From: Acidobacteriota bacterium
GTDB lineage: Bacteria > Acidobacteriota > Terriglobia > Bryobacterales > Bryobacteraceae
DNA: 46,153 nucleotides
Direction: 5' to 3'
Assembly: GCA_016213755.1 (NCBI GenBank)
Contig: JACQZT010000261.1
Span: 1 to 46,153 of the forward strand
The stretch's first letter is position 1; the number at the start of each line of letters is the position of its first letter. Below the pieces are notes generated by a model, which made no database searches, was not told the DNA's origin, and saw nothing but the letters and a program-made list of their open reading frames with translations. Made by a program: the position numbers and the translations under genes. Below are positions 2,972 through 32,324 of the stretch, piece after piece.

Positions 2972-3799
2972 ATGATACGAGACCTCGCAGGCGCCACCTT
3001 GTTTGTTCTTGCTTCGTGCGCGGTCCAGACGCAGCCCCCGCCGGCCTTCGAGGTCGCATCCATCAAGCCGGCCGCGCCCATGACCGGTGGCCGGATGATG
3101 GTCCGCATGGGCGGCGATCCGGGGAGAATCAACTACACCGGCGTCACCCTGAAGGACGTCCTGGCGCGGGCGTATGACGTGAAGCGGTACCAGATCAGCG
3201 GGCCATCCTGGCTGGACAGCGAGCGCTATGACATCGTCGCCAAGGTGCCGGACGGCGCCCCGCGGGAGCAGATCCCGGCCATGCTGCAAAGTCTGCTGGC
3301 GGAACGATTCAAGATGGCCGTGCATCGGGAGAGCAAGCAACAGCCGGCCTACGCGCTGGTGGTCGGCAAGAACGGGCCGAAGCTGAAGAAATCCGAAGTC
3401 ACCGGCGACAGCGGCGCCCGCGCAACCGAACCCCGGGGCACCATGATGATGTCCAGCAACGGACGCCTGGAGGCCAGGAAGACCACTCTGGGGGCCTTCT
3501 CGGACCTGCTTTCGAAACTGCTGGACCGTCCGGTGGTGGACCTGACCAAGCTCGAAGGGTACTACGACATCACGCTCGAGGTTGCGATGGAGGACCTGGC
3601 CGGCATGAGGAAGTTGCCGGCGATGGCGGGGCCGGGACCGGGCGGACCGAGGCAGGAAGGCGGTCCCGCCCCCGACAGCGCTCCCTCGGCGTCGATCTTT
3701 ACGGCGGTGCAGCAGCTTGGACTGAAGCTGGACACGCGGAAACTGCCGATCGACTACATCGTCGTCGGCCAGGCGAACAAGGTTCCGACGGAAAACTGA
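2972..3799 (+). CDS. TIGR03435 family protein (predicted lipoprotein)
   Basis: A 275-residue member of the TIGR03435 family, which is expanded in soil Acidobacteria and has no established biochemical role. Visible hallmarks are FEVASIKPA near the mature N-terminus, GVTLKDVLARAYDVKRYQISGP, a WLDSERYDIVAKVP segment, LLAERFKMAVHRE, and a C-terminal LLDRPVVDLTKLEGYYD block. The N-terminus is hydrophobic and ends in LASC, a plausible lipobox, so it is probably lipid-anchored at residue 16. A strong ribosome-binding site (AAGGAGATGG) precedes the ATG. It is the first gene of a plus-strand group; the receptor begins 10 bases after its stop, suggesting a shared envelope task. The family call is secure; function is unknown. 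Confidence 0.92.
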   Translation: MIRDLAGATLFVLASCAVQTQPPPAFEVASIKPAAPMTGGRMMVRMGGDPGRINYTGVTLKDVLARAYDVKRYQISGPSWLDSERYDIVAKVPDGAPREQIPAMLQSLLAERFKMAVHRESKQQPAYALVVGKNGPKLKKSEVTGDSGARATEPRGTMMMSSNGRLEARKTTLGAFSDLLSKLLDRPVVDLTKLEGYYDITLEVAMEDLAGMRKLPAMAGPGPGGPRQEGGPAPDSAPSASIFTAVQQLGLKLDTRKLPIDYIVVGQANKVPTEN

Positions 3800-3809
3800 G
3801 ACCGGCGGA

Positions 3810-6704
3810 ATGGCATCCCATCGCAGCTTCGGCTTTCCGCGGCCGGGAATCGCGGTGCTCGCGTGCTGCTCGTTCTTGGCGGCGGCGGAGCATCACGGGC
3901 AGGTCCGGTTCGGCGGTCTGCCGGTGCCCGGCGCCACCGTCACGGCGGCTCGAGGCGACCAGCGGTTCACGACCATCTCCGATCCGCAAGGCGCGTATTC
4001 GTTCGCCGAACTGGCGAACGGCGTCTGGACGATACGAATCGAGATGCAGTGCTTCGCGCCGCTGGAGCGGGAAGTAGCGGTCGCTCCCGCCGCGCCGGCG
4101 CCGGTCTGGGAGTTGAACCCGCTGCCGTTGGAGAAGCTCAATTCGAGCGCGCCCCCGCCGAAGCCGCAAGCCGTCGGCGAGACGAACCAGGCGCCGAGCG
4201 ACGGGTTTCTGATCAACGGCAGCGTGAACAACGGCCTGGCCTCGCCCTGGGCGCAGCCGGCCGCCTTCGGCAACTACCGCAAAGGGCCGCGTTCGCTCTA
4301 CAACGGCAGCCTGGGGCTGGCCTTCAACAACTCCCTCTGGGACGCCCGCTCGTTTTCGCTCACCGGCCAGAACACGCCCAAGCCGGACTACAGCCGCGTG
4401 CAGGGCATGGCGTCGTTCGGCGGGCCGCTTCGGATTCCGCGCCTGGGCCTGCGCGAAGGCCCGAATGTGACGTTGAATTACCAGTGGACCCGAAACCGCA
4501 ATGCAACGATGCACACGGCGCGCGTTCCCACGGCAGCCGAACGGTCGGGCGACTTATCGCAAACGCCGGGCGCGGCGTTTGCGATGAACGCCATCCCGCC
4601 CAGCCGGATCAGCCCTCAAGCCCGGGCGCTCCTGGGCTTCTATCCGCTGCCGAACTTCAACGCCGGCGCGGGTTACAACTACCAGACGGCGCTGGTGGGA
4701 TCGAGCCACCAGGACAGCCTGCAATCGCGCGCGAACAAGTTCATCGGCAAGAAAGACCAGGTCTACGGCGCGTTCGCCTTCGAGAGCGCGCGCGGGGACA
4801 ACACCAACATCTTCGGCTTCCTGGGTACCACCAGTTCGCTCGGTCTGAACAGCTCCGTGAACTGGACGCACCGCTTCGGGATGCGCGGGTTCTCGAATCT
4901 CGGCTTCCAGTTCAGCCGCCAGTCGATGCGCACGACGCCGTTCTTCGCCGGCCGGCTGAACGTCTCCGGCCGCGCTGGAATCGCCGGCAACAACCAGGAG
5001 CCGGCCCACTGGGGCCCGCCCTCGCTTGTGTTCTCCAGCGGCATCGCGGCGCTGTCCGACGTCCGGAATTCGGCCACCCACAATCAAACGGGCGGAATCT
5101 CGGCATCGCTGTTCCGGGCGCACGGCGCGCACAACATCACGGCGGGCGCGGGTTTCCGAAGGCAGCAGTTCAACGCGTGGTCGCAGCAGGATCCGCGCGG
5201 CACGTTCACCTTCACGGGAGCCGCGGCGGGCAGCGATCTGGCCGGCTTTCTGCTCGGCATCCCGGACACGAGTTCCATCGCCTTCGGCAACGCCGACAAG
5301 TACCTGCGGGCCGCGGCCTGCGACGCCCACATCACCGACGACTGGCGCTTCGGCCCCTCGCTGACCTTCAACGGCGGCGTGCGCTGGGAGTACGGCGCAC
5401 CCATCACGGAACTCTACGGGCGACTGGTGAATCTGGATGTCGCGCCCGCCTTCTCCGCCATCGCTCCGGTGGTGGCGGCGAGCCCCGTGGGTCCGCTCAC
5501 CGGCCGCCGGTACCCCGACTCGCTGGTAAACCCGCATAGGCGCGCCTTCCAGCCGCGCGCCGGTCTTTCGTGGCGCCCGGTGCTGGCCTCCTCGCTGGTG
5601 ATTCGCGCCGGATACGGAGTCTACTACGACACTTCCATCCACCTGCCCATCGCCGCGCGCATGGCGCAGCAACCGCCGCTTTCCCGGAGCCTGAGCGTCG
5701 CCAACAGCGCCGCCAATCCGCTGACACTCGCCGACGGCTTCCGCGCGCCGCCGGACGCCACCACCAACACCTTCGCGGTCGACCCCAATTTTCGAGCCGG
5801 GTACGCGCAGACGTGGCAGCTCTCGATCCAGCGGGATTTGCCCAGCTCGACGGTGGTTACCGCGACCTATCTGGGGACCAAGGGCACGCGCGCGCAGCAG
5901 CAGTTCCTGCCCCATACCTGGCCCGCGGGCGGGCTCAGCCCGTGCCCGTCCTGCCCGTCCGGGTATGCGTACCTGGCCTCCAACGGCAACTCGACGCGCG
6001 AGTCCGGGCAGATCCAGTTGCGCCGCCGGCTGGGCGGCGGCTGGGCCGCGCAGTTGAGTTATACCTTTTCGAAGTCGATTGACAATGCCGCGCTGGGCGA
6101 CCGGGGGCAGGGGGCAACGGTAATCGCGCAGGACTGGCGAAACCTGAGCGGCGAGCGCGGCCTCTCCAGTTTCGACCAGCGTCATTTGCTGAGCGCCCAG
6201 ACGCAGTACACCAGCGGCATCGGCCTCGGCGGCGGCACGCTGCTGGATGGCTGGAGAGGACGCCTGACGCAGGATTGGACCATCACGGCCGTGGCCGGCG
6301 CGGGCAGCGGCCTGCCCCTCACTCCGGTCCACATGGCGGTGGTGGGTGGCACGGGCATCATCGGCAGTGTCCGGCCCGACTACACCGGCGCCCCGCTCTA
6401 CGCAGCTCCGCCCGGCATGTTCCTCAATCCCGCCGCTGTCGCCTCCCCCGCGCCGGGCCGATGGGGCAATGCGGGACGCAATTCCATCACCGGCCCGGCC
6501 CAGTTCACCCTGAATGCGGGCCTGGGCCGCATCTTTCGCTTGACGGAACGCCTTAGCGCCGACTTCCGGCTGGATGCCGTGAACGTGCTCAATCACGTCA
6601 CTTTCCCGAGCTGGAACGTGGTTTCGACCAGCGCGCAGTTCGGGCTGCCCGCCGCGGCCAACCCGATGCGCCACGTGCAGGCGAGCATGCGAGTGAGGTT
6701 CTAA
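3810..6704 (+). CDS. Oar-like outer-membrane receptor with carboxypeptidase-regulatory-like domain
   Basis: A 964-residue outer-membrane beta-barrel of the acidobacterial Oar/TonB-receptor-like type. A signal peptide (about 1-26, AVLACCSFLAAA) leads to a CarboxypepD_reg/Cna-B-like domain (about 27-95: GLPVPGATVTA, TTISDPQGAYSFAELANG). The rest is repetitive strand-rich barrel ending in MRVRF, a typical aromatic C-terminus for BamA recognition. Between the N-terminal domain and barrel there is SDGFLINGSVNNG but no convincing complete plug like that of the receptor at 9479-11776, so TonB dependence is uncertain. The start is the ATG 10 bases after the TIGR03435 stop; the VWFA gene starts three bases after its stop. 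The substrate is unknown. Confidence 0.88.
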   Translation: MASHRSFGFPRPGIAVLACCSFLAAAEHHGQVRFGGLPVPGATVTAARGDQRFTTISDPQGAYSFAELANGVWTIRIEMQCFAPLEREVAVAPAAPAPVWELNPLPLEKLNSSAPPPKPQAVGETNQAPSDGFLINGSVNNGLASPWAQPAAFGNYRKGPRSLYNGSLGLAFNNSLWDARSFSLTGQNTPKPDYSRVQGMASFGGPLRIPRLGLREGPNVTLNYQWTRNRNATMHTARVPTAAERSGDLSQTPGAAFAMNAIPPSRISPQARALLGFYPLPNFNAGAGYNYQTALVGSSHQDSLQSRANKFIGKKDQVYGAFAFESARGDNTNIFGFLGTTSSLGLNSSVNWTHRFGMRGFSNLGFQFSRQSMRTTPFFAGRLNVSGRAGIAGNNQEPAHWGPPSLVFSSGIAALSDVRNSATHNQTGGISASLFRAHGAHNITAGAGFRRQQFNAWSQQDPRGTFTFTGAAAGSDLAGFLLGIPDTSSIAFGNADKYLRAAACDAHITDDWRFGPSLTFNGGVRWEYGAPITELYGRLVNLDVAPAFSAIAPVVAASPVGPLTGRRYPDSLVNPHRRAFQPRAGLSWRPVLASSLVIRAGYGVYYDTSIHLPIAARMAQQPPLSRSLSVANSAANPLTLADGFRAPPDATTNTFAVDPNFRAGYAQTWQLSIQRDLPSSTVVTATYLGTKGTRAQQQFLPHTWPAGGLSPCPSCPSGYAYLASNGNSTRESGQIQLRRRLGGGWAAQLSYTFSKSIDNAALGDRGQGATVIAQDWRNLSGERGLSSFDQRHLLSAQTQYTSGIGLGGGTLLDGWRGRLTQDWTITAVAGAGSGLPLTPVHMAVVGGTGIIGSVRPDYTGAPLYAAPPGMFLNPAAVASPAPGRWGNAGRNSITGPAQFTLNAGLGRIFRLTERLSADFRLDAVNVLNHVTFPSWNVVSTSAQFGLPAAANPMRHVQASMRVRF

Positions 6705-6707
6705 GAG

Positions 6708-8750
6708 ATGCGCCGCGTGACCGCCACGGTTTTTTCATCCCTGTGGATCCTCGCGGCCCAGCAGCCGCCGCCGGACCCGGCCCTGCCCAGGTTTCAGAGC
6801 ACCTCGCAGCTCGTGATCGAAGTGGTCACAGTGAACGACAAGAACGGCAAGCCGCTGGAGGGTCTCCAGGCCGGCGACTTCACCCTCACCGAAGACGGCG
6901 TGCCGCAAAGTATCCGGATCTGTGAGTTTCAGAAGCTGCCCGGGCCGGAGGACGCCGCGGTCGAACCGGCAACTCGCACACGGAACGCGCCCGCCGCGCC
7001 GGGCGGTCTCCGCTACCAGAACCGCCGGCTGCTGGTGCTGTACTTTGATATGAGCGCCATGCCGCCGCCGGACCAGTTGCGCGCCTTCGCCGCGGCGAGG
7101 AAGTTCCTGACCTCGCGGATGACGCCCGCCGACCTGGTAGCGGTGATGGAATTCGCCGGCGGCGCGGTGAAGCTGCTGCACGATTTCACGGACGATCGCG
7201 ACCAACTGGCGGCCACGCTGAACCAGCTCGTCGCGGCCAGCCAGGGTCTGGACGAAAACGCCGGCGATGAAAGCTCGCCCGACACCGGCTCCGCGTTCGG
7301 CCAGAACGACAGCGAGTTCAATATCTTCAACACCGACCGGCAACTTTCCGCACTGCAAACGGCGGCCAAGATGCTCGGCGCGCTGAACGAACGCAAGTCG
7401 CTGATCTACTTCGCCAGCGGGCTGCGGCTGAACGGCGCCGACAACCGGGCGCAGTTGCGCGCCACGCTGAACGCGGCCATCCGCGCCAACGTGGCGTTCT
7501 TCCCCCTCGATGCGCGCGGCCTGGTGGCGCAGGCGCCGGCCGGCGACGCAGCCCAGGGTTCGCCGGGAGGGGCCGGCCTATACACCGGCGGGGCGGCGAT
7601 GGCCACGATGAACAACCTCCAGCGCTCGCAGGACACGCTGTATGCCCTGGCGTCCGACACCGGCGGCAAGGCCCTGTTCGATTACAACGACCTGTCGATG
7701 GGCATCGTCCAGGCGCAGAAGGCGGCCTCGAGCTACTACATCCTCGGCTACTACCCGGCCAATGCCGCGCTCGACGGCAAGTTCCGCCGGATCAAGATCT
7801 CGCTGCGGGAGTTTCCTTCGGCGAAGCTGGACTACCGCCAGGGATACTTCGCCGGCAAGGAATTCGCCAAATTCACGGCGGCCGACAAGGAACGTCAACT
7901 GGAAGACGCGCTGATGCTGGGCGATCCGATCACGGATCTCACCATCGCGATGGAGGTCAACTACTTCCAGTTGAACCGCGCCGAGTACTACGTGCCCGTG
8001 GTGATGAAGATCCCCGGCAGCGAGCTGGTGCTGGCGCGCAAGGGCGGCGCCGAGAGGACCGTCATCGACTTTATCGGCGAGATCAAAGACGAGTACGGCA
8101 CGACCATTCAGAACCTCCGCGACAAAGTCAATATCAAGCTGAGCGGCGAGACCGCGGCCGAGCTGGCCCGGCGCCACATCCAGTACGATACGGGCTACAC
8201 ACTGCTGCCGGGTGCGTACACCATCAAGGTCCTGGCCCGCGACAACGAAACCGGACGCATCGGGACGTACCTGAGCCAGTTCACCATCCCCAACCTGAAC
8301 AAGGAAACCCAGCGAGTGCCGATCTCCAGCGTCGTGCTGAGCAGCCAGCGCATCGATTTGCGCGAGGCCCTCTACACGGCCGGCAAGGACCAGGCGCAGA
8401 TCTCCAATCCGCTGGTGCAGGAAGGACAGAAGCTGATCCCCAGCGTGACGCGCGTGTTCAGCCGGAGCCGGGAGATGTACGTCTACCTGCAAGCCTACGA
8501 ACCCTCGGCCGCCAGCGTCCAGCCGCTGGTCGCGTACGTGACGTTCTATCGCGGGCCGGCCAAGGCCTTCGAAACGCCCCCGCTTACGGCGACCGAAGCA
8601 CTGAACAACCGGCTAAAGACCGTGCCGCTGAAGTTCGGCATCGCGCTGGCCAAACTGCCCCCAGGCCGCTACACCTGCCAGGTGACGGTGCTGGACCCCA
8701 AGGCTCGGAAGGCGGCCTTCTGGCAGGCGCCGATCCTGTTGGCGCGATAG
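6708..8750 (+). CDS. VWFA-related acidobacterial domain protein (TIGR03436 type)
   Basis: A 680-residue exported protein. A short signal peptide is followed by FQSTSQLVIEVVTVNDKNGK and LEGLQAGDFTLTEDGV, the entry motif of acidobacterial VWFA-related proteins. A von Willebrand A-like domain runs over about 100-345 (LLVLYFDMSAM as a partial MIDAS start, LVAVMEFAGGAVKLLHDFT, KSLIYFASGL, ASSYYILGYYP). The C-terminal half is beta-rich and ends FWQAPILLAR. No transmembrane helix is evident apart from the signal. It follows the Oar-like receptor by 3 bases and precedes a helical protein, so it is probably translated as part of this operon. Adhesion or scaffolding is suggested by the fold; no ligand can be named. 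Confidence 0.88.
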   Translation: MRRVTATVFSSLWILAAQQPPPDPALPRFQSTSQLVIEVVTVNDKNGKPLEGLQAGDFTLTEDGVPQSIRICEFQKLPGPEDAAVEPATRTRNAPAAPGGLRYQNRRLLVLYFDMSAMPPPDQLRAFAAARKFLTSRMTPADLVAVMEFAGGAVKLLHDFTDDRDQLAATLNQLVAASQGLDENAGDESSPDTGSAFGQNDSEFNIFNTDRQLSALQTAAKMLGALNERKSLIYFASGLRLNGADNRAQLRATLNAAIRANVAFFPLDARGLVAQAPAGDAAQGSPGGAGLYTGGAAMATMNNLQRSQDTLYALASDTGGKALFDYNDLSMGIVQAQKAASSYYILGYYPANAALDGKFRRIKISLREFPSAKLDYRQGYFAGKEFAKFTAADKERQLEDALMLGDPITDLTIAMEVNYFQLNRAEYYVPVVMKIPGSELVLARKGGAERTVIDFIGEIKDEYGTTIQNLRDKVNIKLSGETAAELARRHIQYDTGYTLLPGAYTIKVLARDNETGRIGTYLSQFTIPNLNKETQRVPISSVVLSSQRIDLREALYTAGKDQAQISNPLVQEGQKLIPSVTRVFSRSREMYVYLQAYEPSAASVQPLVAYVTFYRGPAKAFETPPLTATEALNNRLKTVPLKFGIALAKLPPGRYTCQVTVLDPKARKAAFWQAPILLAR

Positions 8751-8772
8751 CATGATTGGGGGTACGACAACT

Positions 8773-9462
8773 ATGTTCAAAGACGTTATCGAGGGGCTCA
8801 AACTGGTTAAGGAAGGCATCCAGAGCGTACAGACGATCGCCAAAGCCGTGCAGAGCGGAAAGGACTACCTGAAGGCAAAGCATCCGGACGTGCGGAGCGA
8901 TTTGCGCGCGATGGCCGGGGAGCTGGGCAAGAGCCTCTGGTTCGTCAAACAGGCCTCCGCGGTGCTGACCAACTTCCGGTTCGCCGTCGGGGCCGGCAGC
9001 GCGGGCACGGAACTCCGGGCCTTCAACGACCGCTACATCCAGTCCAAGACCGAAGCGCAACGATTGCGCGATCAAATCGACGATCTGCGGACCCATTGCA
9101 GCAAGGTCCGCGATCACGCCATGAGGATTTGCGGATCCGCGGGAGCGGCCGGGTTCGCGAAGCTCTTCGCCATGCTGGGCCTGAACTCGCCCGAGAAAGA
9201 GAAAGAACTGGGCGAGAAGCTCGACCGCTTGGCCTATGAGGACTTCACCGTCGCCAACAGCGCCCAGAAAATGCTGGAATGCCTGGAGAGCGCGTTGAGG
9301 GATATCCAGGACGCGCTGGGCGATGGCGGGGCCATGTATCCGGAGGGAATTCCGCGGGCGGCGGCGCTGCTGGCCCAGTACGGACCGGCGTTCGAGGAGA
9401 TGGAGGAAGAGGCCGCCCTGGGGGCGAAGACGATCCGCGAGATGGTGAAGGATCTGGAGTAG
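8773..9462 (+). CDS. Unrecognised helical protein ending the TIGR03435/VWFA operon
   Basis: I do not recognise this protein. From the ATG at 8773 it is 229 residues, almost entirely helix-forming and rich in Lys/Glu, with heptad-like stretches (IQSVQTIAKAVQSGKDYLKAK; KTEAQRLRDQIDDLRTHC). It has no signal peptide or clear transmembrane segment, so it is probably cytoplasmic unless exported by another route. An in-frame ATG lies at 8752, but it abuts the upstream stop without a ribosome-binding site, whereas GGGGGT precedes 8773. It is the last gene of the group and converges with the minus-strand receptor at 9479. A soluble coiled-coil partner for a membrane or secretion system is one reading; nothing in the sequence fixes it. 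Confidence 0.75.
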   Translation: MFKDVIEGLKLVKEGIQSVQTIAKAVQSGKDYLKAKHPDVRSDLRAMAGELGKSLWFVKQASAVLTNFRFAVGAGSAGTELRAFNDRYIQSKTEAQRLRDQIDDLRTHCSKVRDHAMRICGSAGAAGFAKLFAMLGLNSPEKEKELGEKLDRLAYEDFTVANSAQKMLECLESALRDIQDALGDGGAMYPEGIPRAAALLAQYGPAFEEMEEEAALGAKTIREMVKDLE

Positions 9463-9478: not shown

Positions 9479-11776
9479 TCATTTGCCGCCCAGACGGAAC
9501 GTCAGCCCCACCACGGCCGTGAGCGGGTATCCCGGGGTCCCGTGGATTCTCGCCACGATGGGAGCCTTCGGAGCGGCACGCGACTCGAAGTAGTTCTGCG
9601 TCTCGTAGTAATCCCGGTTGGTCAGGTTATCCAGGCTCAGATTGAACTCAACGCCCCGGCGCACCCGTTTTGCGAGACCCAAATCAAAGACCGTGTGCCC
9701 GGCGGCGACCACCGAAGGATCGTCGCCGTCCAACCGGTAGTGGTTGATCGCTCTCATTCGAAACGAGCCGCTCCATCCGCGCCATCCGGCCAGGGTCAGA
9801 GCCGCGTTGGCGGCAAAATGGGGAGCGCTGTCGACATAAACCCGGCGGCCGCCGCCCCGGAAGAACGCATTCCCGATTTTGGTGAGGCCGCCATTGAGCG
9901 AGAGCCGCGGCGTGATGGCAACCGACGCCTTGGCTTCATAGCCATACGCACGACTCGGCCCCTTGAACTCGAAACTGCCATCGTCGGGGACGTAGACCTG
10001 TTCGTTGGAGTGGTCGATCAGAAACACGCCGGCGCCGATCCCAAACCGCCCGAAGTTCGATGCCGTGCCGAGCTGGTAGAAATCGGTGGTGGCGAGCTGC
10101 GGCTGGTCGGGCCGCTGAACGACGCCGCGAGCGTCGGTACTGTTGATGCCCCGCCCGTAGTTGGCCGTCATCGTGAGCGGCAAGCGGCGGGAGGGCGTGA
10201 AAGCAACGCTGCCCTTCCCCTGCCAGCGTCCCCCCGCCTGGACGCCGCTTTCGGCGGGATTGACCCGGTCGGCCACGCCGAAACGGAACTCGTCGAAGCG
10301 AACGCCGCCGCCAAGCAAAAGGCGTCCCTGAAACAGGCTCAGATTTTCCTGCGCATAGCCCGCACCGTTGGTGACGTGAGCATTGGCCCTGGCCGTCACA
10401 CCCGTTGGAACCCGGCCCCGGCGAGGATACAGCCCGACGTTGATCTGGTTGTCGTGGAAGTTCGAACCCGCCACCAGGACCGCGGCCGCGGACCCGAAGC
10501 GGTGCGGGTGGGTGTACTGAGCGTTCACGCCCTGCTGCAAGCGTGAGTCGTGCTGCTGAAATGCATCGCCGTTGACCGGGTCGTTCAGGTACATCGTGAA
10601 GTTCGAGAACAGGTCCAGAAGCGACCGCGAGAGGAATGCGTCGGCCTTAAACGTATCGCCGTTGGTTCTCAGCTTGCTGTAGTAGACCGAAGATGTCCCG
10701 AGCTTGACCCGGCCTCCGTGGGTCGGGTCGATGTAGCCCAACCGGCCGAGCAGGCCTTCGCTCACCAGGTCCAGAGGGATTTGTCCGCTGGAATGAAAAT
10801 TGTTACGCCCGAAGAGAAATCGGACGCCGATCTTCTCGCTCGTACCGACCGGCCTGGTGTAGCTGGCGTTGAAGTTGTCCCGGCGATAGCGGCCCGGATT
10901 CTGAAACGGCCCATCCGTGTACGAGCCTTCGTACGCCACATAAGCGTCGGCGTGTTGGGCATCGGGACTATACGCCAGGAACGCACGGCCCGTATCGAAG
11001 TTCCCGCCCTGAAGCCGAACGGTGGCCCGGTCCGGCAGCGATTCCCGCTGCCGGATGTGGACTACGCCCAGGCCGCTGAAATCCCCATACTCCGCGCTGA
11101 ACGGGCCGTTAATCAGCGTGACATCCTGGATCAGCTCCGGGCTCAGGGCTTTGAGCGCCCCAAGGTAGCCTTGTCCGTGGCCCTGCGTGCCCTGATTTTG
11201 CTGCACGCCGTCCACGAGAACCTTGAGACCGCCATTCGTGCCGCCGTGGTCGAGATTGAAGCCGAACCGCCGGATTTCGACGGATTTTCCGCCGCCTTCA
11301 TGCTGGCCCGCATCGATTCCGGCGTTCAGTTGCTGCATCGCCTGATCGTCGCGAGTGAACAGCGTCCGGTCGAAAACTTCGGCGTTGCGGAGATCCACCG
11401 CCGGCTCGACGGTTTTCGCCGTTATGACGATGCTTTGATGCTGTCCGGCGATTCCGGGGAGCGTGACGTCCAACTGTTCGACGCCGCCATCTCCGATCGT
11501 GACTTCCCGTGTGCTGCTCTGAAATCCGGGCGATTCCGCTGTCAGCCGGTACGGGCCGGGTGAAATGGAACCGAGGCGGACTTGGCCTCTCCCGTCCGTG
11601 GTCGCGACTGCGGCGGCGGCCGTTCCGGTTTGCAGCCGGACCGCCGCTCCGGCGACACTCCGGCCCTGCGGGTCAAGCACCCGGATCACAACTTCACTGG
11701 CGCAATGAACGGGCGGGACCGCAAGCGCCAACAGCGCCAGAAGACTCCCGGCACAAGTGGAAGACTGGTTTCGCAT
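9479..11776 (-). CDS. TonB-dependent receptor with N-terminal regulatory-like domain and plug
   Basis: A 765-residue outer-membrane transporter. The signal peptide (about 1-27, ending near VHCAS) is followed by a carboxypeptidase-regulatory-like domain (VIRVLDPQGRSVAGAAVRLQ ... TTDGRGQVRLGSISPGPY), then a real plug: VKVLVDGVQQNQ-like segment (seen as GLKVLVDGVQQNQGTQG), LIQDVTLINGPFSAEYGDFSGLG. A 22-strand-type barrel follows, with NLSLDNLTNRDYYE and a final TFRLGGK. The plug and size fit classical TonB-dependent transport, unlike the larger Oar-like neighbours. I chose the ATG at 11776 (MRNQSS), preceded by GGAGC at suitable spacing, over a TTG 30 bases upstream. It is divergent from the receptor at 11912 and convergent with 8773-9462. 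The substrate is unknown. Confidence 0.9.
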   Translation of the reverse strand: MRNQSSTCAGSLLALLALAVPPVHCASEVVIRVLDPQGRSVAGAAVRLQTGTAAAAVATTDGRGQVRLGSISPGPYRLTAESPGFQSSTREVTIGDGGVEQLDVTLPGIAGQHQSIVITAKTVEPAVDLRNAEVFDRTLFTRDDQAMQQLNAGIDAGQHEGGGKSVEIRRFGFNLDHGGTNGGLKVLVDGVQQNQGTQGHGQGYLGALKALSPELIQDVTLINGPFSAEYGDFSGLGVVHIRQRESLPDRATVRLQGGNFDTGRAFLAYSPDAQHADAYVAYEGSYTDGPFQNPGRYRRDNFNASYTRPVGTSEKIGVRFLFGRNNFHSSGQIPLDLVSEGLLGRLGYIDPTHGGRVKLGTSSVYYSKLRTNGDTFKADAFLSRSLLDLFSNFTMYLNDPVNGDAFQQHDSRLQQGVNAQYTHPHRFGSAAAVLVAGSNFHDNQINVGLYPRRGRVPTGVTARANAHVTNGAGYAQENLSLFQGRLLLGGGVRFDEFRFGVADRVNPAESGVQAGGRWQGKGSVAFTPSRRLPLTMTANYGRGINSTDARGVVQRPDQPQLATTDFYQLGTASNFGRFGIGAGVFLIDHSNEQVYVPDDGSFEFKGPSRAYGYEAKASVAITPRLSLNGGLTKIGNAFFRGGGRRVYVDSAPHFAANAALTLAGWRGWSGSFRMRAINHYRLDGDDPSVVAAGHTVFDLGLAKRVRRGVEFNLSLDNLTNRDYYETQNYFESRAAPKAPIVARIHGTPGYPLTAVVGLTFRLGGK

Positions 11777-11886
11777 GGCTTTCGCTCCAGTATCACGATT
11801 CTTCAATTCGTAACACTAGCACGAATTCTCTTCGCGCTTCAAGCAAAAAAAGGCGGGTGCGACTTCCACCCAGTCGCCGTTTGTTA

Positions 11887-11911: not shown

Positions 11912-14900
11912 ATGCGCGGTTTTCTGGAGGTCGCGGCAGCGACTTTGCTTCTCTCCTCTCTTCTGCCGGCTCAATCGGGGAATGCCACCATCTCCGGGCA
12001 GGTCAAGGACGCCACCGGAGCGGTGATTCCCGGGGCCAGCGTCGCGGTGAAGAACGCCGACACCAACGTCGTGCGCTCCACCACGGCGAACCACGAGGGC
12101 ATCTATACCATCACCAACCTGATTCCGGGCCCCTATAGCCTGTCGGCCGGCTTCCAGGGCTTCAAGAACCTGGAGCAAGGGCCGTTCACCCTGCGCGTGG
12201 GCGACCGCGTGACCCTGGATCTCACCATGGAGGTGGGCTCGCAAGCCGAGCGCGTCAACGTCACCGCCGAAGTGCCTCTGCTGCGCACCGAGGACGTGCA
12301 GACCGGGCTGGTGATCGACAACCGGCGCATCCAGGAACTCCCGCAGTACAACCGCAACGCGCTGGCCTTCGCGCAACTCACGCCCAACGTCAACGGCACT
12401 TCGGATCAGGGCGGCCACGACAACGACCTGCGCATCAACGGCGGTCGCACGGCGCAAATGGAGTACTTCATCGACGGCCAGCCGGTGACCACCGGCTATC
12501 GCCACGACGTGCCGGCCTCGGTGCCGACCATGGAATCCGTGGCCGAGTTCAAAGTGCTGACCAACGGCCTGTCGGCCGAGTACGGGCGGCTCTCCGGCGG
12601 CGCGGTGGTGCTGGTCACGCGCTCGGGCACCAACGACTTTCACGGTTCGGCTTACGAGTACTTCAAGAACGACAAGCTGAACGCCACCGACTGGAACTCC
12701 AACCGCTTCGGACGCAAGAAGGGCGTGTTTCACGAAAACGTCTTCGGCGCCGCCATCGGCGGCCCGATCCGGATCCCCAAGGTGTACAACGGCCGCGACA
12801 AGACCTTCTTCTTCCTGAACTACGAGGGCGGCCGCTACCGCTCGGGCAGCAATGCGCGCTTCGCCAGCGTGCCCACGGAACTGGAGCGCGCCGGCGACTT
12901 CTCGCAGAGCCTGATCGATTCCGGCTACGGGGTGCAGATCTTCGACCCGCTGACAGCCCGGGTGGTCGGCAACCGAATCGTCCGGCAGCCCTTCGCCGGC
13001 AACCGGATTCCGAGCGCGCGCGTCGACCCGATTTCGAAGATCTACCTGGGTTATTACCCCGCGCCAAACACCGCGCCGCGCGCCAATTCCAGTCACGACA
13101 ACAACTTCATCGGCGCCTCCACTAACCCGTCGGAGAACGACCGCTTCACGGGCCGCCTGGACCAGAACTGGAACTCCAACCACACCACGCACTTCTCGCT
13201 GGTGCGGCGCGACGATAAATCGGCTTCCACGCGCTGGCTATCCCCCCTGCAATCGGTGGGCACCACCTTTGGCACCGCGCACACCATCACTTTGGATCAC
13301 ACCTGGACCATGACGCCCACCACGGTGGTGAATTTTCGCGGCGGCGTCGTGCGCCGGGTCTATGCCGGCGGCGGCCTGGTGGAGGCCGACGCTTCCGGCT
13401 GGGGCTTGCAGAACGAGGTGGTGCTGCTGCTGGGCGGCGCCAAGGGCCGGGTCCCCACCCTGCAAACCGGCGACACTCTCACCAACCTCGGCGGCGGAGA
13501 TGTGAACAACCAGTGGGAGACCACCTACAACAGCTCCGTGAGCGTGCAGAAGTTGTGGGGCAAGCACACCTTCAAGGCCGGCTACGAGCACCGCCGTTAC
13601 TACTCCAATTATGTATCCGGCGGCAGTTTCGGCCTGGCATCGATGCGCAGCGTGACCTCGCAGTACTACGACCAGCCGATTCCCACCGGCTCCGGTTTCG
13701 CGGGCTGGCTGCTGGGCGCGGTCACTTGGGGCTCCGGCACGGAGATGGCCGGTCCCGCGTCGCTGCAAACCTACCACGGCGCTTACTTGCAGGACGACAT
13801 CAAGCTGAGCTCCAAGTGGACCATCAACGCCGGCATCCGCTGGGATTTCGAGCCGCCGCGCACGGAGCGCTTCAACCGCCAGATCTTCTGGGACCAGAAG
13901 TACAAGTGGGATTGGCAGCCGAACGCCGGATGGAGCTGGGATAAGGTGCAGCAACAGGCCGGCGTGACGGCGCCCGCACCGCAGTGGCTGACGCAGGGGT
14001 ATTTCGGCCGCGCGGGCATCACCGGCACCAAGGAGTACCCGTCGCGCATCTTCCAGGAAACTCAGCCGTTCCACTTCGGCCCGCGCATCGGCGTGGCTTA
14101 CCAGGTGAATCCCAAGACCGTCGCGCGCATCGGGTACGGCATCAACTGGATGACGCTGACCGGCAACAGCTTTATGAACGGCGCCATCTGGAACGTGGGC
14201 TACGGCGGGTTGGCGCGCCTGACCCAGGGCGGATCGCCCGATGGCGGGCTCACCTACCCCTTGACGTTCAAGGTGCCCATGCCCAACGGCGAGGGCTACG
14301 TGCCGCCCACGCGCGACGTTTCCGAGCTTAACCAGAAGATCATGGGCCAGTGGTTCATCGCCGGCGCTTCCGACATGAACCCCGGCTACGAGCACGTCTT
14401 CCAATTGGGTTTCCAGCGCGAGGTCGCGAGCGGAGCGAATAGCTGGGTGTTCGAACTGGCTTACAACGGCAACCTGGGCCGCCAACTGCCCTTCTGGCAC
14501 GGCAAGGGCGAACACATTCTGCCGGACGCCTATCACAAGATCGGCCCCTATGGCGAAAAGCTGTTTGCCATGGTGGACAACCCGTTCTACGGGCGCATCC
14601 CCTCCGGCGGGCAGGCCGGCCGGCAGCTTCCCGTCGGTCGCATGTTCCAGTTGAACCCGCTGTGGAACGAAATCTGGACCTTCGGCCAGCCCATGGGCGT
14701 GTCGAACTACCATTCCGGGTACGTGCAAGCGGAGCACCGCTTCGGACACGGCTTCACCTTCCTGGCCAACTACACGCTCGGCAAGTCGCTCCAGGATGTG
14801 GGCGCCCTGGAGGGACAGAGCATGCAGGGCCAGGGCGGGCAGGCCTTCCCGCAGGCGGGACTCGGCCTGGGCGACATCTACGGCCTGGCGGTGAACGACA

Positions 14901-15487
14901 TCCGGCACAAGCTGCTGTTCAACTATAGCTGGGACCTGCCCGTGTTCCGCGGCAAGGCGATTCTAGGCGGGTGGCGGATCGCCGGAACCACCACCATCCG
15001 CGCGGGCACCCCGGCGCTGGCCTACGTCCCCAGCGGGGGCGTGGGCGGCTTGGGGAGCCAGTGGTACAACATCGGCCACAGCCGCACTTCGCGGCCGGTG
15101 TTTGTGCTCCCGCGCGCCGACTACAAGGGCGGAGTGGACGGCCACACGGCGCTGGAAGGCTCGGCCGGCTACAAGCCCTACATGATCCGCGAGTCGATGC
15201 GGCTACCGCAGACTCTGCCCAGCATCGTCGAGATCGGCGACGTGCCCAGCGCCTTCAGCGACCTGCGCTACCCGAGTTTCTCGCAGTGGGACTTCTCGCT
15301 GCTGAAGAACTTCCGGCTGGGGAAAGAGACCCGCTACCTGCAATACCGCCTGGAGGCGGAAAATATCCTCAACCACATGAATGCCGGCAACCCCGGCCAG
15401 GCCATCACCGCCCGCGATTTCGGCATGATCACCGGCCAAAGGGGCAGCCCCCGCCGCGTCATGATGGCCCTCAAGCTGTATTTTTAG
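11912..15487 (+). CDS. Oar-like TonB-dependent receptor, 1191 residues
   Basis: A very large outer-membrane receptor. Signal peptide (MRGFLEVAAATLLLSSLLPAQ), then a carboxypeptidase-regulatory-like domain (about 25-105: ISGQVKDATGAVIPGASVAV ... GIYTITNLIPGPYSLS), then a plug-like region (QELPQYNRNALAFAQLTP, FIDGQPVTTGYRHD, FKVLTNGLSAEYGRLSGG), then a long barrel ending in MALKLYF. These are the hallmarks of the Oar/SusC-like receptors expanded in Acidobacteria, generally assigned to uptake of large or complex substrates. The ATG at 11912 is set by TAGGAGG; the frame is open back to 11582 but that runs antisense through the neighbouring receptor. RtcB begins 15 bases after its stop and could be co-transcribed. 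Confidence 0.92.
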   Translation: MRGFLEVAAATLLLSSLLPAQSGNATISGQVKDATGAVIPGASVAVKNADTNVVRSTTANHEGIYTITNLIPGPYSLSAGFQGFKNLEQGPFTLRVGDRVTLDLTMEVGSQAERVNVTAEVPLLRTEDVQTGLVIDNRRIQELPQYNRNALAFAQLTPNVNGTSDQGGHDNDLRINGGRTAQMEYFIDGQPVTTGYRHDVPASVPTMESVAEFKVLTNGLSAEYGRLSGGAVVLVTRSGTNDFHGSAYEYFKNDKLNATDWNSNRFGRKKGVFHENVFGAAIGGPIRIPKVYNGRDKTFFFLNYEGGRYRSGSNARFASVPTELERAGDFSQSLIDSGYGVQIFDPLTARVVGNRIVRQPFAGNRIPSARVDPISKIYLGYYPAPNTAPRANSSHDNNFIGASTNPSENDRFTGRLDQNWNSNHTTHFSLVRRDDKSASTRWLSPLQSVGTTFGTAHTITLDHTWTMTPTTVVNFRGGVVRRVYAGGGLVEADASGWGLQNEVVLLLGGAKGRVPTLQTGDTLTNLGGGDVNNQWETTYNSSVSVQKLWGKHTFKAGYEHRRYYSNYVSGGSFGLASMRSVTSQYYDQPIPTGSGFAGWLLGAVTWGSGTEMAGPASLQTYHGAYLQDDIKLSSKWTINAGIRWDFEPPRTERFNRQIFWDQKYKWDWQPNAGWSWDKVQQQAGVTAPAPQWLTQGYFGRAGITGTKEYPSRIFQETQPFHFGPRIGVAYQVNPKTVARIGYGINWMTLTGNSFMNGAIWNVGYGGLARLTQGGSPDGGLTYPLTFKVPMPNGEGYVPPTRDVSELNQKIMGQWFIAGASDMNPGYEHVFQLGFQREVASGANSWVFELAYNGNLGRQLPFWHGKGEHILPDAYHKIGPYGEKLFAMVDNPFYGRIPSGGQAGRQLPVGRMFQLNPLWNEIWTFGQPMGVSNYHSGYVQAEHRFGHGFTFLANYTLGKSLQDVGALEGQSMQGQGGQAFPQAGLGLGDIYGLAVNDIRHKLLFNYSWDLPVFRGKAILGGWRIAGTTTIRAGTPALAYVPSGGVGGLGSQWYNIGHSRTSRPVFVLPRADYKGGVDGHTALEGSAGYKPYMIRESMRLPQTLPSIVEIGDVPSAFSDLRYPSFSQWDFSLLKNFRLGKETRYLQYRLEAENILNHMNAGNPGQAITARDFGMITGQRGSPRRVMMALKLYF

Positions 15488-15502: not shown

Positions 15503-16894
15503 ATGGACGCATTCCGGCACCAGGTGGCGCCCGGCGTGGTGGTCTATGCGAGCGCGGCGATCCTGGAGCAGATTAGCCAGGATCTGTCGATCGAGCAGGC
15601 CAAGAACGTCGCGCAACTGCCGGGCATCGTCGGCCCCAGCCTGGCCATGCCCGATATCCACCAGGGCTACGGCTTCCCCATCGGCGGAGTGGCGGCCCTG
15701 GGCTGGGAGCACGGCGTGGTGTCGCCCGGCGGCGTGGGTTTCGACATCAATTGCGGCGTGCGCAGCGTGACCACCTCGCTCACCGCCGACCAGGTGCGGC
15801 CCAGGCTGCGAGAGCTGGTGGATCAGCTCTTCCGTGACGTGCCCTGCGGCGCGGGCGCCGACGGGCCGCTGCCGGTCACGGACAAGCAGCTCGACGAGGT
15901 GCTCGAGAAGGGCGCGCGCTGGATGGTCGAAAACGGCTACGGCATGGAGCGCGACCTGGAGTACTGCGAGGCCAACGGCTGTCTGGCCGAAGCCGACCTA
16001 GCGGCCGTCTCCGAGCGCGCCAAGAAGCGCGGCAAACCGCAACTGGCCACGCTGGGCAGCGGCAACCACTTCCTGGAGGTCCAGTGGGTGGAACAAATCC
16101 ACGACGCCGCGGCCGCCCGCGCCATGGGCTTGAGCGAAGGGCAGGCAGTGGTGCTGATCCACTGCGGCTCGCGCGGGCTGGGCCACCAGGTCTGCACGGA
16201 CTTTCTGGCCCAGATGGGTCCGGCCATGAAGCGCTACGGCATCACCCTGCCCGACCGGCAACTGGCCTGCGTGCCCATCCACTCGCCCGAGGGGCAGGCC
16301 TACCTGGGCGCCATGCGCGCGGCGGCCAACTTCGCCTGGGCCAATCGCCAGGCCATCCTGCATTTCATCCGCGGCTCCTTCCGCAAGGTTTTCGGCCCGT
16401 CGGTGCGGCTGGACCTGGTCTACGACGTCAGCCACAACATCGCCAAGCGCGAAAAGCACGTGGTAGAAGGGCGCAAGGTGGACGTGCTGGTGCACCGCAA
16501 GGGCGCTACGCGGGCCTTCCCGCCGGGCCACCGCGAGCTGCCGCGCGCCTACCGCGACATCGGCCAGCCGGTGCTGATTCCGGGCAGCATGGGCACGGCC
16601 TCCTGGATTCTGGCCGGTGCCGAAGGCGCCATGCGCGAGACCTTCGGCAGCGTCTGCCACGGCGCCGGGCGGCGCATGAGCCGCACTGCGGCGCGCAAGG
16701 GGCGCGACGCGCGCCAGGTACAGAAGCAGCTTGAGGAGGCCGGCATCCTGGTCAAATCCGAGAGCCGCGACGGCATCCTGGAAGAGGTGCCGGAAGCTTA
16801 CAAGGACGTGGATGAGGTGATCGAGGTGGTCCACCAGGCCGGCCTGGCCCGCAAGGTCGCGCGGTTGCGGCCCATGGGCGTGATCAAAGGTTAG
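15503..16894 (+). CDS. rtcB: RtcB family RNA-splicing/repair ligase
   Basis: RtcB joins RNA 2',3'-cyclic phosphate or 3'-phosphate ends to 5'-OH ends using GTP and Mn2+, in RNA repair or tRNA splicing. This 463-residue protein carries all metal and guanylylation landmarks: PDIHQGYGFPIGG (50-62), SPGGVGFDINCG with Asp81 and metal-binding Cys84, GSGNHF with His189, IHCGSRG with His220, SHNIAKRE with His311, and CHGAGRRMSR in which His386 is the expected guanylylated residue. The start is an ATG preceded by AAGGGGGGTGA. It follows a receptor by 15 bases and its stop overlaps the convergent nusG-like stop by 4. No rtcA or rtcR lies nearby, but an archease gene is present at 33499-33909. Confidence 0.94.
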   Translation: MDAFRHQVAPGVVVYASAAILEQISQDLSIEQAKNVAQLPGIVGPSLAMPDIHQGYGFPIGGVAALGWEHGVVSPGGVGFDINCGVRSVTTSLTADQVRPRLRELVDQLFRDVPCGAGADGPLPVTDKQLDEVLEKGARWMVENGYGMERDLEYCEANGCLAEADLAAVSERAKKRGKPQLATLGSGNHFLEVQWVEQIHDAAAARAMGLSEGQAVVLIHCGSRGLGHQVCTDFLAQMGPAMKRYGITLPDRQLACVPIHSPEGQAYLGAMRAAANFAWANRQAILHFIRGSFRKVFGPSVRLDLVYDVSHNIAKREKHVVEGRKVDVLVHRKGATRAFPPGHRELPRAYRDIGQPVLIPGSMGTASWILAGAEGAMRETFGSVCHGAGRRMSRTAARKGRDARQVQKQLEEAGILVKSESRDGILEEVPEAYKDVDEVIEVVHQAGLARKVARLRPMGVIKG

Positions 16895-17466: not shown

Positions 17467-20400
17467 TCAGAAGTTGATCTTGGCCGCCACCTGGCCTACG
17501 CGCGGTAACAGGAGGGTCGAATCGATGCGCCCAAACGCTCCGCTGCCCAGGCCGGTATTGGGGAGCGCGAAGTTCGGCTTGTTGAACACGTTGAAGTACT
17601 CGAAGCGAAGCTGGAGGCTCACGTTCTCCCGGATTTTCGTGTTCTTGATGAGAGACAGGTCCTGGTTGAACAGGGAGGGGCCGCGAACATCGGGCAGGGT
17701 CCGGCCAACGTTGCCGAGCGTGTAGGAGGCCGGCTGAAGAAATGCCGTGGTGTCGAACCACCGGCTCAGGGCTTCGCCCCGGGTTCGCGAGGTTTCGATC
17801 GCCGCGCTCTTTCCCGTGCTGTTGGGCCGGTTGCCGCCCCCGGGAATCGGCGCCGTCATGCTCAAGGGGAGGCCGGTGCGGTAGGAAGTGATGCCGTTCA
17901 GTTGCCAGCCGCCGGCCAGGGCCGCCGCCAGCCGGCGGCCGGAGCCGAACAGCGGCTTGCCCGGACCGAAGGGAAGCTCGGCGACATAGCTGACGGTGAG
18001 ATTCCGCGATACGTCCAGCTCCGAAACCGCGCGCTCCGAGCGCAGGTTGTACCAGTTCTGGGTGTTGGTGACGTTGCCGCCGCCGATCTGGGAGACATCG
18101 TTGTTGGAGTTGGAGATGAGCTTGCCGAAGGTGTACGCCAACAGGACGCTGAAGCCCTTCGAGAAGCGCTTGTCCATCTTTAATTGCAGCGCGTGGTAGA
18201 TGCTGTCGGCCGAGGTCATGTTGACCACGCTGACCCCGGTGAACTGCGGGTAAGGCAGCAGCAACTGGCGGCGGGTCACCGTCCTCTGCGCGAGCGTTCC
18301 GACGTTGATGGCTCCATAGAAAGGATTCGCGACCAACTGGTTCAGTCCCGTGCCGAGGCTCAGGTACTGAGGATCGAGATCGTTGAGCTGGCGGTTGCGA
18401 AAGGCCAGGTGGACTCCGCGGCTGCCGGCGTAGGCCACATCCACCAGGACCTGCCCGGGCAATTCTCTCTGCACGTCGAAGTTCCACTGGTACGTGCGCG
18501 GCATCACCTGCCGGTCGTCCCAGACCGTCAGCCCCTGGCCCAGGTACGTCGAAGCCCCCAGGGAGTTGCGAGTGGGCTGGATCAGGCCCTCCGGGAAGGG
18601 ATTGCTTATCGAATTGTAGGGCGTCAGCCCTCCATCGACCGAACTGACAAAGGGGGTGGTGGCGGAGTACCCGGCGTTGGAAGCGAACGCCGTGGCCGTG
18701 TTGGAGGTCTCGGCCGGAGCGAAGAACACGCCGCTTCCCCAGCGCAGGACGGTCTTGGGCAGCACGCTCCAGGCAAAGCCCAGGCGCGGCGCGAAGTTCA
18801 TCCGGTTCCATTGCCAGACATGCCGGCTGGAGGGGGTGGCGAAGACCAGGCCTCCCCGCAAGCCGGGAAACTGGCTGTTCCGGACGGGAGACGGCAGGCC
18901 GCTGTCGAAGTAGTTGATGGAATTGTATCTCTCGGTGAACGGCGACTCGGTTTCATAGCGCAAACCGGCGTTCATGGTGAGGCGCTTCGTCAGGCGGATG
19001 TCGTCCTGCACGTAGCCGGCCGTGTAGACGTTCTGGAGGGACACGCCGCAGATGATGGGCGCCGAGCCCGAGGCCGGAAAACCGAGCAGCAGACTCGCCA
19101 CGCCGTTGCCGGCGTTGTCATAAAACGTCAGCGGGTTCGGACCCCGTGTGAAGGCGCGGTTGAAAGTGTAGGAGCCGCTGCCGCCGCCGATGAGGATGAA
19201 GTTGACCCGGTTGAGGCGCACATCGCCGCCGGTCTTGAGCGTCTGCTTGCCCATCACCCTGGTCAGGGAACCGTTCAGGCTGTGCGTGTCGTTGCCGCTG
19301 CTGAAGTAGGTCTGCCCGCCGAGGCCGCTGTACTGCTCGACAGTGGTGGCGGGGAACACCGGGATCTGGAACTGGCGGACCAGCGAGTCGGGGAAGCCGG
19401 CGGCTCGGGCGTCAAAGCCATAGCTCCGGGTCGCCCGAAACTGGTACCAGCGGGCAAAACCGTATTTCAGACTCAGGATCGAACTGGGACTGAGGTTCGC
19501 GGTATGATCCCAGGCGACGCTGGTCTGGCGGAAAGGCGTCTTCCCGACGGACCCGGTCGAGGGCGACGCCACATTGTCAAAGTAATCCGGCTGAGCCAGC
19601 ACCGTCCGGTTGTGCGCAAACCGCAGGAAGGTGCGGTAGGAGTCGGAAAAGTTGTGGTCCATGCGCCCGCTGAACTGGTTCTGGTCGATGTTGCGGCCGG
19701 CGTTGCTCACGAAGTTGTTGAAGTTGGTGAACGGGTCGCCGGCGGCATTGGGTTGCGGGTAGAACTCCAGCAGTTTGCGTGCAATGGAGTTGAGCCGGTT
19801 CGAGGGCAGAACATTGCCGGCGAAAGGAGTGCGAATGGAGGCGCCCGCCCGCGCCGGATCGGGCTTGGTGGAGGTCGGATCGTAGATCACGACCAGGCTG
19901 CCCTGCTGGTTCAAGGTTTTCGAGAAATCGCCGTTGCGCTGCTCGGGCGCGGGCACCGAAGTGCGAAACGTATCTCCCCGGCGCCACTTCGTACCCTGGT
20001 AGTCGGAGAAGAAGAACGTCCGGTTCTTTCCGTCGTAGAGCTTGCCGAACCGCACCGGCCCTCCGATGGCGCCTCCGAATTGATTGACGCGAAAAGGCGG
20101 AATGCCCCGGCCGGCGCCCTTATTGAAAAACTCGTTGGCGTCAAAGGCGTTGTTGCGCAGGTATTCGTAGAGCGCTCCGTGCAACTGGTTGGAACCGGAG
20201 CGGGTGGAGACGTTAACCACGCCGCCGCTGAACCGGCCCCACTCGGCCGAAAGGTTGCTGCTCTGCACCTTGAATTCCTGCGTGGCCTCGATCGACGGAA
20301 TGGTGGTGATGGTGTTGAACTGCCCGGTGGTGCTGGGCACGCCGTCGATGAGGATCTCGTTGCTCATCTGGTGGCTGCCGTTGATCGAGAAATTCGTGTC

Positions 20401-20940
20401 CCAATTCGTGTTCACGGGGATGTCGCCGAACTGCCCGTTGGCCCCCGGCGACGTCAGCAGGCCCGGCGTCAATTGAACCAGGCGGAACGGACTGCGGCCG
20501 TTCAGCGGGATGTTCTGGATCTTGGCGTGGTCGACGATCTGGCCCAGCGCCGAGGTTTCCTGGTCCAGCAGCGGCGCCGCCGCCGACACCTGGATCTCCT
20601 GCGTGACCGTGCCGAGTTCCAGCTCCACATCGAGGCGCGCCACCTGATCGACCATCAGCGCGATCCCGGTGCGGCTGACCGGCCGAAACCCCTCCTTGGT
20701 CACGCCGATCCGGTAGTTGCCCGGGGGAAGAAGGGGGCAAACGTAGGCGCCGGCTTCGTTGCACCGGCTTTCCCGAGTGGTCCCCTGGTCCACATTGGTG
20801 ACCTTGACGGACGCGCCGGGAACTCCGCCGCCCGACGGATCCGTGACCCGGCCGACGATCTGGGCGGTTGTGCCTTGGGCGAAGACGATCCCCGCACCCA
20901 GCAAACCCGCAACGAGCCCTTTGAGCAAGCAAGCGTTCAC
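17467..20940 (-). CDS. Oar-like TonB-dependent receptor, 1157 residues, GTG start
   Basis: Another large acidobacterial receptor. Signal peptide about 1-22 (GLLGAGIVFAQ), regulatory-like domain about 25-110 (IVGRVTDPSGGGVPGASVKV, AGAYVCPLLPPGNYRIGV), plug-like region (NIPLNGRSPFRLVQLTPG, ILIDGVPSTTGQFN, FKVQSSNLSAEWGRFSGG), then a long barrel closing with a C-terminal aromatic (AAKINF). The start is GTG at 20940, preceded by a consensus AGGAGG six bases away; no better ATG is available. It is transcribed ahead of the nusG-like gene and divergently from the respiratory operon, sharing a 218-base intergenic region. The substrate cannot be inferred. Confidence 0.92.
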   Translation of the reverse strand: MNACLLKGLVAGLLGAGIVFAQGTTAQIVGRVTDPSGGGVPGASVKVTNVDQGTTRESRCNEAGAYVCPLLPPGNYRIGVTKEGFRPVSRTGIALMVDQVARLDVELELGTVTQEIQVSAAAPLLDQETSALGQIVDHAKIQNIPLNGRSPFRLVQLTPGLLTSPGANGQFGDIPVNTNWDTNFSINGSHQMSNEILIDGVPSTTGQFNTITTIPSIEATQEFKVQSSNLSAEWGRFSGGVVNVSTRSGSNQLHGALYEYLRNNAFDANEFFNKGAGRGIPPFRVNQFGGAIGGPVRFGKLYDGKNRTFFFSDYQGTKWRRGDTFRTSVPAPEQRNGDFSKTLNQQGSLVVIYDPTSTKPDPARAGASIRTPFAGNVLPSNRLNSIARKLLEFYPQPNAAGDPFTNFNNFVSNAGRNIDQNQFSGRMDHNFSDSYRTFLRFAHNRTVLAQPDYFDNVASPSTGSVGKTPFRQTSVAWDHTANLSPSSILSLKYGFARWYQFRATRSYGFDARAAGFPDSLVRQFQIPVFPATTVEQYSGLGGQTYFSSGNDTHSLNGSLTRVMGKQTLKTGGDVRLNRVNFILIGGGSGSYTFNRAFTRGPNPLTFYDNAGNGVASLLLGFPASGSAPIICGVSLQNVYTAGYVQDDIRLTKRLTMNAGLRYETESPFTERYNSINYFDSGLPSPVRNSQFPGLRGGLVFATPSSRHVWQWNRMNFAPRLGFAWSVLPKTVLRWGSGVFFAPAETSNTATAFASNAGYSATTPFVSSVDGGLTPYNSISNPFPEGLIQPTRNSLGASTYLGQGLTVWDDRQVMPRTYQWNFDVQRELPGQVLVDVAYAGSRGVHLAFRNRQLNDLDPQYLSLGTGLNQLVANPFYGAINVGTLAQRTVTRRQLLLPYPQFTGVSVVNMTSADSIYHALQLKMDKRFSKGFSVLLAYTFGKLISNSNNDVSQIGGGNVTNTQNWYNLRSERAVSELDVSRNLTVSYVAELPFGPGKPLFGSGRRLAAALAGGWQLNGITSYRTGLPLSMTAPIPGGGNRPNSTGKSAAIETSRTRGEALSRWFDTTAFLQPASYTLGNVGRTLPDVRGPSLFNQDLSLIKNTKIRENVSLQLRFEYFNVFNKPNFALPNTGLGSGAFGRIDSTLLLPRVGQVAAKINF

Positions 20941-30116: not shown

Positions 30117-30125
30117 GAACGGACC

Positions 30126-31687
<1,562 letters not shown>

Positions 31688-31691
<4 letters not shown>

Positions 31692-32323: not shown

Positions 32324-32324
32324 T

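Follow-up and report, generated by a model that had tools for sequence, protein, structure and literature searches.

A conserved envelope module of Acidobacteria linking a DUF3738 protein, a TonB-transporter-type barrel without recognisable plug and an exported VWFA protein

The described systems closest to the locus analysed here are Oar and the other TonB-dependent transporters, the SusC/SusD pairs, two-partner secretion and the BlaR1/BlaI sensors. In PMC6434023, the plug domain belongs to the definition of a TonB-dependent transporter. Oar of Myxococcus is described there as having a plug and using TonB, and it sets an example of such a barrel acting in protein secretion.

The locus lies in a window of 46,153 nucleotides, which is the whole stretch of DNA that was analysed (contig JACQZT010000261.1 of the Acidobacteriota assembly GCA_016213755.1, family Bryobacteraceae). 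It comprises four genes, here called P1 to P4 (Table 1). The barrel protein P2 resembles Oar and the TonB-dependent transporters in that a TonB-transporter-type barrel comes after a CarboxypepD_reg domain, and the fold of its predicted model matches BtuB, FecA, FhuA and Sus-type barrels. Unlike those transporters, neither P2 nor any of its 23 aligned relatives matches the Plug family PF07715 (0/24 at E 0.01). As in SusC/SusD, a large barrel and an exported partner are encoded by adjacent genes, but P2 has no Plug match, the partner P3 is a VWFA protein, and no SusD match was obtained in P1, P3 or P4 at E 1 (Pfam). A barrel gene adjoining one exported-protein gene is also the arrangement of two-partner secretion (TpsB/TpsA). 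P2, however, belongs to another barrel class, and no POTRA or TPS domain was matched by Pfam at E 1 in the four proteins of the window. In sister loci, as in BlaR1/BlaI (MecR1/MecI), a BlaI-like repressor gene stands beside the gene of an M56 protein whose C-terminal domain lies outside; in the two proteins scanned, this outer domain differs in being DUF3738 instead of a penicillin-binding domain. The window itself holds no M56 or BlaI gene, whereas both are present in 13 of 65 sister loci.

The preliminary description had reported four genes on one strand, separated by about 10, 3 and 22 bases, and the open reading frames lie as it claimed, the gaps being 10, 3 and 22 bases long. The families it had named for the first three genes were confirmed by profile matches. 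P1 matches TIGR03435 (E 9e-84, 280.9 bits against a curated cut-off of 40) and DUF3738 (E 5e-50, 170.8 bits against a curated cut-off of 22). P2 matches PF25183 (OMP_b-brl_4, E 2e-147) and CarboxypepD_reg (E 3e-10) in Pfam, and P3 matches TIGR03436 (E 2e-71, 241 bits against a curated cut-off of 81.25). The fourth gene is indeed unrecognised, as all the matches of P4 fall below the family cut-offs. A codon model, for which relatives of P1–P3 served as training set, gave a positive coding score to each of the four genes and placed the start of P4 at 8773, an alternative longer frame covering 8752-9462; since the same model puts the start of P2 inside the gene, its start calls are rough.

Table 1. 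Features of the locus, with positions counted in the window
Feature	Position	Strand	Size or remark
P1, TIGR03435/DUF3738 protein with signal-peptide-like start	2972..3799	+	275 aa
P2, Oar-like outer-membrane beta-barrel without recognisable plug domain	3810..6704	+	964 aa
P2, N-terminal CarboxypepD_reg domain	3912..4100	+	residues 35-97
P2, linker occupying the plug's place	4101..4322	+	residues 98-171
P2, barrel domain PF25183	4323..6680	+	residues 172-957
P3, exported VWFA protein TIGR03436 with conserved C-terminal extension	6708..8750	+	680 aa
P3, VWFA region	6786..7853	+	residues 27-382
P4, without known relatives, after the trio	8773..9462	+	229 aa; ATG behind GGGGG

P1, P2 and P3 form one conserved envelope module in many Acidobacteria, and P4 stands outside it. 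The trio was followed in 65 loci from four families, each holding the best P3 match of its genome: those of ranks 1-29, then 20 from ranks 30-50, then 16 from three other families, with full-length matches of at least 50% identity. The count leaves out L118 (genome G140), although all three genes are present there, and likewise L116, L117 and L119; the set from outside the family omits the cut-off matches G321, G427 and G394 and the second copies G479, G439 and G401. A barrel gene lies directly upstream of the P3 orthologue, on the same strand, in all 65 loci, and in 51 of the 65 a DUF3738/TIGR03435 gene is found within 1.5 kb upstream of the barrel. Adjacency in related genomes was thus found for the first three genes. 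The earlier idea of a single four-gene surface system is supported as far as these conserved neighbours reach and fails for P4, for which no search gave a relative.

The presence of P1 is less constant. Seven of the 14 loci with no DUF3738 gene end at contig ends, and P1 is missing in 7/58 loci of this set that have enough upstream sequence. Loci without P1 on the same strand despite more than 900 bases upstream are L083, L089, L096, L101, L102, L193 and L197; in L083, a DUF3738 gene lies on the opposite strand. In addition, five of the 51 DUF3738 reading frames are short, at 138-211 codons (L094, L108, L159, L180 and L187). These absences and short frames indicate that P1 is not obligatory. 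In distant pairs, below 40% identity, the barrel is kept in 4/4 and DUF3738 in 0/4. Among named loci (best 80 of 337), a set that overlaps the 65 loci and is not independent of them, the barrel is present in 77/78 and DUF3738 in 52/58 with enough sequence. P1 is also missing in the named loci L233, L236, L245, L260, L287 and L292, and L275 has a P3 gene with 4.4 kb upstream, yet no barrel directly before it. The named carriers include Bryobacterales MAGs, Solibacter MAGs, Granulicella isolates and strains KBS 89 and KBS 96.

Many genomes of the window's family encode long, close relatives of P3. The other genome of the window's genus (G019) carries a barrel-VWFA pair at ~50% identity and gave no TIGR03435 match. 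The genome of the window contains four further barrel-VWFA pairs of the same type, on contigs C396, C231, C441 and C413 (L109-L112), with no TIGR03435 match. In this draft genome, the gene in the module is the single TIGR03435 gene found; relatives have up to 21 P1 matches per genome (at most 12 candidates each scored).

The association of the families was also examined in two ways that did not select loci by P3, the first of them in four near-closed genomes. There, nine of ten TIGR03435 genes are followed, 3.7-6.3 kb downstream, by a TIGR03436 gene on the same strand. Counted as independent loci, these are 7/8, against a null mean of 0.1 and a maximum of 3 in 20,000 (the VWFA positions of genome G103 being drawn at random), and chance juxtaposition of TIGR03435 and TIGR03436 was rejected on this basis. 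The second, a survey of TIGR03436 copies in one of these genomes, covered 23 of its 29 matches. A barrel lies directly upstream of 5/5 P3-type copies, four of which also have DUF3738, and of 0/18 other copies, one of which has barrel remnants ~5 kb upstream. Pairing with a barrel as a general TIGR03436 trait was likewise rejected, since in this genome only the P3 type pairs.

The barrel and VWFA genes of the module are closely linked. The distance from barrel stop to VWFA start is -1 to 5 bases in 61/65 loci, as measured to the nearest VWFA start, a choice that favours small values. The trees of the two proteins agree, with a Mantel r of 0.97 that 0/2000 permutations reach (28 pairs chosen for spread, five of them from the window's own genome). 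The pair has mostly been inherited and duplicated together, and this co-inheritance can also stem from co-regulation without contact.

P2 fits the large outer-membrane barrel of the preliminary description, PF25183 and the predicted structure pointing to a TonB-transporter-type barrel. PF25183 was found in 24/24 P2-type barrels, and TonB_dep_Rec_b-barrel in only 6/24. The plug's place is taken by a variable, Pro/Ala- or Gly-rich linker; it spans 74-210 residues in P2-type barrels, and its length alone does not prove plug loss. A conserved DGFLINGS-like stretch inside this linker could be a plug remnant. The window holds three other barrels, which are a plugged TonB-dependent receptor (9479-11806), converging with the operon and ending 16 bases from the end of P4, and two Oar-like barrels at 11912-15487 and 17467-20904. 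Two of these three match the Plug family, including the one at 11912-15487; the barrel at 17467-20904 has plug-sized room and no Plug match at E 0.01, so that a missing match alone is no proof of plug loss either. By the definition given in the passages of PMC6434023, P2, having no Plug match, is no TonB-dependent transporter, although its barrel is of that class. In another locus, the barrel at L110:487-3933, whose weak Plug match (E 1e-4) falls just short of the cut-off, directly precedes the plug-less barrel in one of the paralogous pairs. These tandem barrels possibly show the plug-less form arising by duplication.

The AlphaFold2 model of P2 has a middling mean pLDDT of 62.6, and the linker is poorly predicted. 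About 22 long strands were counted on its listed elements. The model loosely fits solved barrels of TonB-dependent transporters, with Z up to 15.5 and an rmsd of mostly 5-7, the best structural match being entry BT1762-1763, which we take to be a Sus-type pair. When the model is aligned with BtuB, FhuA and FecA (rmsd 6-7), the matched part starts at residues 134, 157 and 221 of the respective chains, presumably behind their plugs. Compared with PDB sequences, P2 gave a match only to its N-terminal Ig-like part.

The exported VWFA protein expected in third position is well represented by P3, given its TIGR03436 match and a signal-peptide-like start, which ends in AQQ in most of 29 aligned sequences. 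No lipobox was seen in the P3-type starts of this alignment, no sorting tail was noticed in P3 by eye, and the C-terminal part is strongly conserved. The standard VWA metal site is formed by a D-x-S-x-S motif. In 29/29 P3-type sequences, the corresponding motif is D-x-S/T/A-x-M, with Met as the last residue (DMSAM in P3), which makes a standard MIDAS in P3 doubtful. No solved structure was matched by P3 among the PDB sequences.

P1 had been described as lipid-anchored. Its own start does carry a lipobox-like LASC, but of the 44 sequences in a DUF3738 alignment of 48 whose N-terminus can be read, only nine, P1 included, have such a motif, which leaves the anchor doubtful. Many of the DUF3738 starts that lack a lipobox resemble signal peptidase I sites, and being a lipoprotein does not appear to be a trait of P1's family. 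The AlphaFold2 model of P1 (mean pLDDT 83) consists of two alpha/beta halves with a beta-alpha-beta-beta-alpha-beta-like order. This predicted order of elements fits the idea of an STN-type fold; the model itself gave no match to an STN or secretin N-terminal domain (Foldseek best E 0.53; VIA best Z 3.1). The two halves, compared by profile, reached a probability of 6% at best, an STN profile gave three matches in 21 genomes, two of them over the cut-off, and the matches of P1 to PDB sequences were at chance level only.

The DUF3738 domain before the barrel sits at the C-terminal end of a longer M56 (BlaR1) protein in 11 of 51 loci, an architecture that Pfam confirms in the two proteins scanned and that is visible in L174 only at a looser E limit of 1e-3. 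M56 sequence occurs in 19/65 loci and BlaI in 13/65, and nine of the 11 loci with a fusion also have a BlaI-like repressor. In L086, L103 and L107, among others, the matches to BlaI and M56 adjoin or overlap. The free and the M56-fused forms of DUF3738 share one slot in the gene order, and we infer that DUF3738 acts as a receptor reading an envelope signal.

The fourth gene was not borne out as a conserved neighbour, as no search returned a relative. At E 0.001, the 199 other genomes searched within the family yielded none. In 395 other genomes of a phylum sample, 30 gave short scattered matches (E 0.0019-0.098), which are read as helical background; the two samples share a few genomes and together comprise about 590. 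None was found in phages or plasmids, nor in reference species genomes or viral contigs, where the short exact-pattern seeding used reaches close relatives only. P4 is absent from all 80 named loci holding a VWFA gene (0/80), and no recurrent gene occupies its slot behind P3 in sister loci. Pfam returned six weak matches (the best KxDL, E 0.005, below the cut-off) and PHROGs one (E 0.008); PADLOC found nothing, and no PDB sequence was matched. P4 was rejected as a system component on account of its missing relatives, its absence from the named loci and the lack of a recurrently filled slot. Its start only 22 bases after P3, on the same strand, and its coding score would suit a four-gene system including P4. 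Against such a system stand the family genomes, named loci, phages, plasmids and viral contigs, all without relatives, and the phylum sample with its background matches only, so that it is most improbable. To judge from these searches, P4 seems to be a lineage-specific gene outside the conserved module, and it may be co-transcribed with the trio.

Farther along the window, a gene run at 21159-32675 resembles alternative complex III with a cytochrome oxidase, as seen from translated starts only. The start of the gene at 15503-16894 resembles what we take to be an RtcB RNA ligase, and that at 33499-33909 presumably an archease; these two genes lie ~17 kb apart.

Roles for P3 and P1 can be proposed from the gene order and near-overlap, from the co-duplication, from the missing Plug match and from the sensor fusions. 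Our reading, a tentative one held at somewhat less than an even chance, is that the plug-less P2 barrel works with a dedicated exported VWFA partner, P3, as a stand-in for the plug or a gate, while P1 is sensing. The core would be a pair, made of the TonB-transporter-type barrel P2 and of the exported P3 encoded by the almost overlapping gene. As dedicated partner of P2, P3 would take over the role of the plug: its VWFA and C-terminal regions would dock on the barrel, and P3 would open or close it. P1 would bind a ligand outside the cytoplasm and signal the state or the substrate of the P2 channel. Since DUF3738 is placed as the outer part of a BlaR1-type sensor in 11/51 loci, the signal that it binds would switch the module on in loci with the M56-DUF3738 sensor.

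The tie of one exported-protein gene to one barrel gene, near-overlapping and co-duplicated, would also be expected of dedicated secretion, with P2 conveying P3 through the outer membrane to the cell surface or into the medium and P1 sensing or helping. This is supported by the requirement of Oar of Myxococcus for PopC secretion, reported in the Oar passages of PMC6434023. The same passages give Oar a plug whose TonB box matters, whereas P2 has no Plug match, and the P3 alignment revealed no sorting tail; secretion of P3 is considered unlikely. Uptake of large soil polymers or peptides, in which P3 and P1 would be the binding proteins of a SusC/SusD-like arrangement lacking the TonB drive, is less probable again. 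The top structural match of the barrel (BT1762-1763, Z 15.5) agrees with it, and P1 as a sensor domain would suit substrate induction, but Pfam recognises no glycoside hydrolase or carbohydrate-binding domain in P1, P2 or P3, and in 41 neighbourhoods no neighbour cluster occurs in more than four, except the BlaI-like one (five loci). A role for P3 as partner and gate of P2 is preferred over both secretion and uptake.

It is also conceivable that the proteins are independent envelope components that are merely co-regulated, the operon reflecting shared induction only. That P1 can be missing from loci is in line with this, but one VWFA subtype pairs with one barrel subtype through the paralogues, and we regard such independence as improbable, even more so than uptake. 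Returning to P3 as partner and gate, a wider formulation would see here an undescribed outer-membrane translocation or surface-assembly system, in which an Oar-derived barrel has its plug swapped for a separate VWFA partner and BlaR1-type sensors with a DUF3738 receptor control expression in some of the loci. This is possible but rather unlikely.

The open-licence literature contained no paper mentioning TIGR03435, TIGR03436, VWFA-related or DUF3738, and no assigned function; it gave no title on plug-less Oar barrels as part of such a module, and no title on this module among searches for Acidobacteria with VWFA, M56/BlaI or TonB/von Willebrand. The Solibacter genome paper (PMC3174227) tabulates TonB-receptor and von Willebrand paralogues, in passages in which the word operon does not occur. 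The open literature searched yielded no description of the module, which is a variant of Oar-type barrel systems.

Soil Acidobacteria are rich in TIGR03435 and TIGR03436 proteins and in Oar-like barrels. By tying defined subsets of these three unknown families into one module, the analysis turns them into one testable question. The sensor form of DUF3738 occurs in some of the same loci as the module, and the barrel offers a natural case of a TonB-transporter-type barrel seemingly without its plug.
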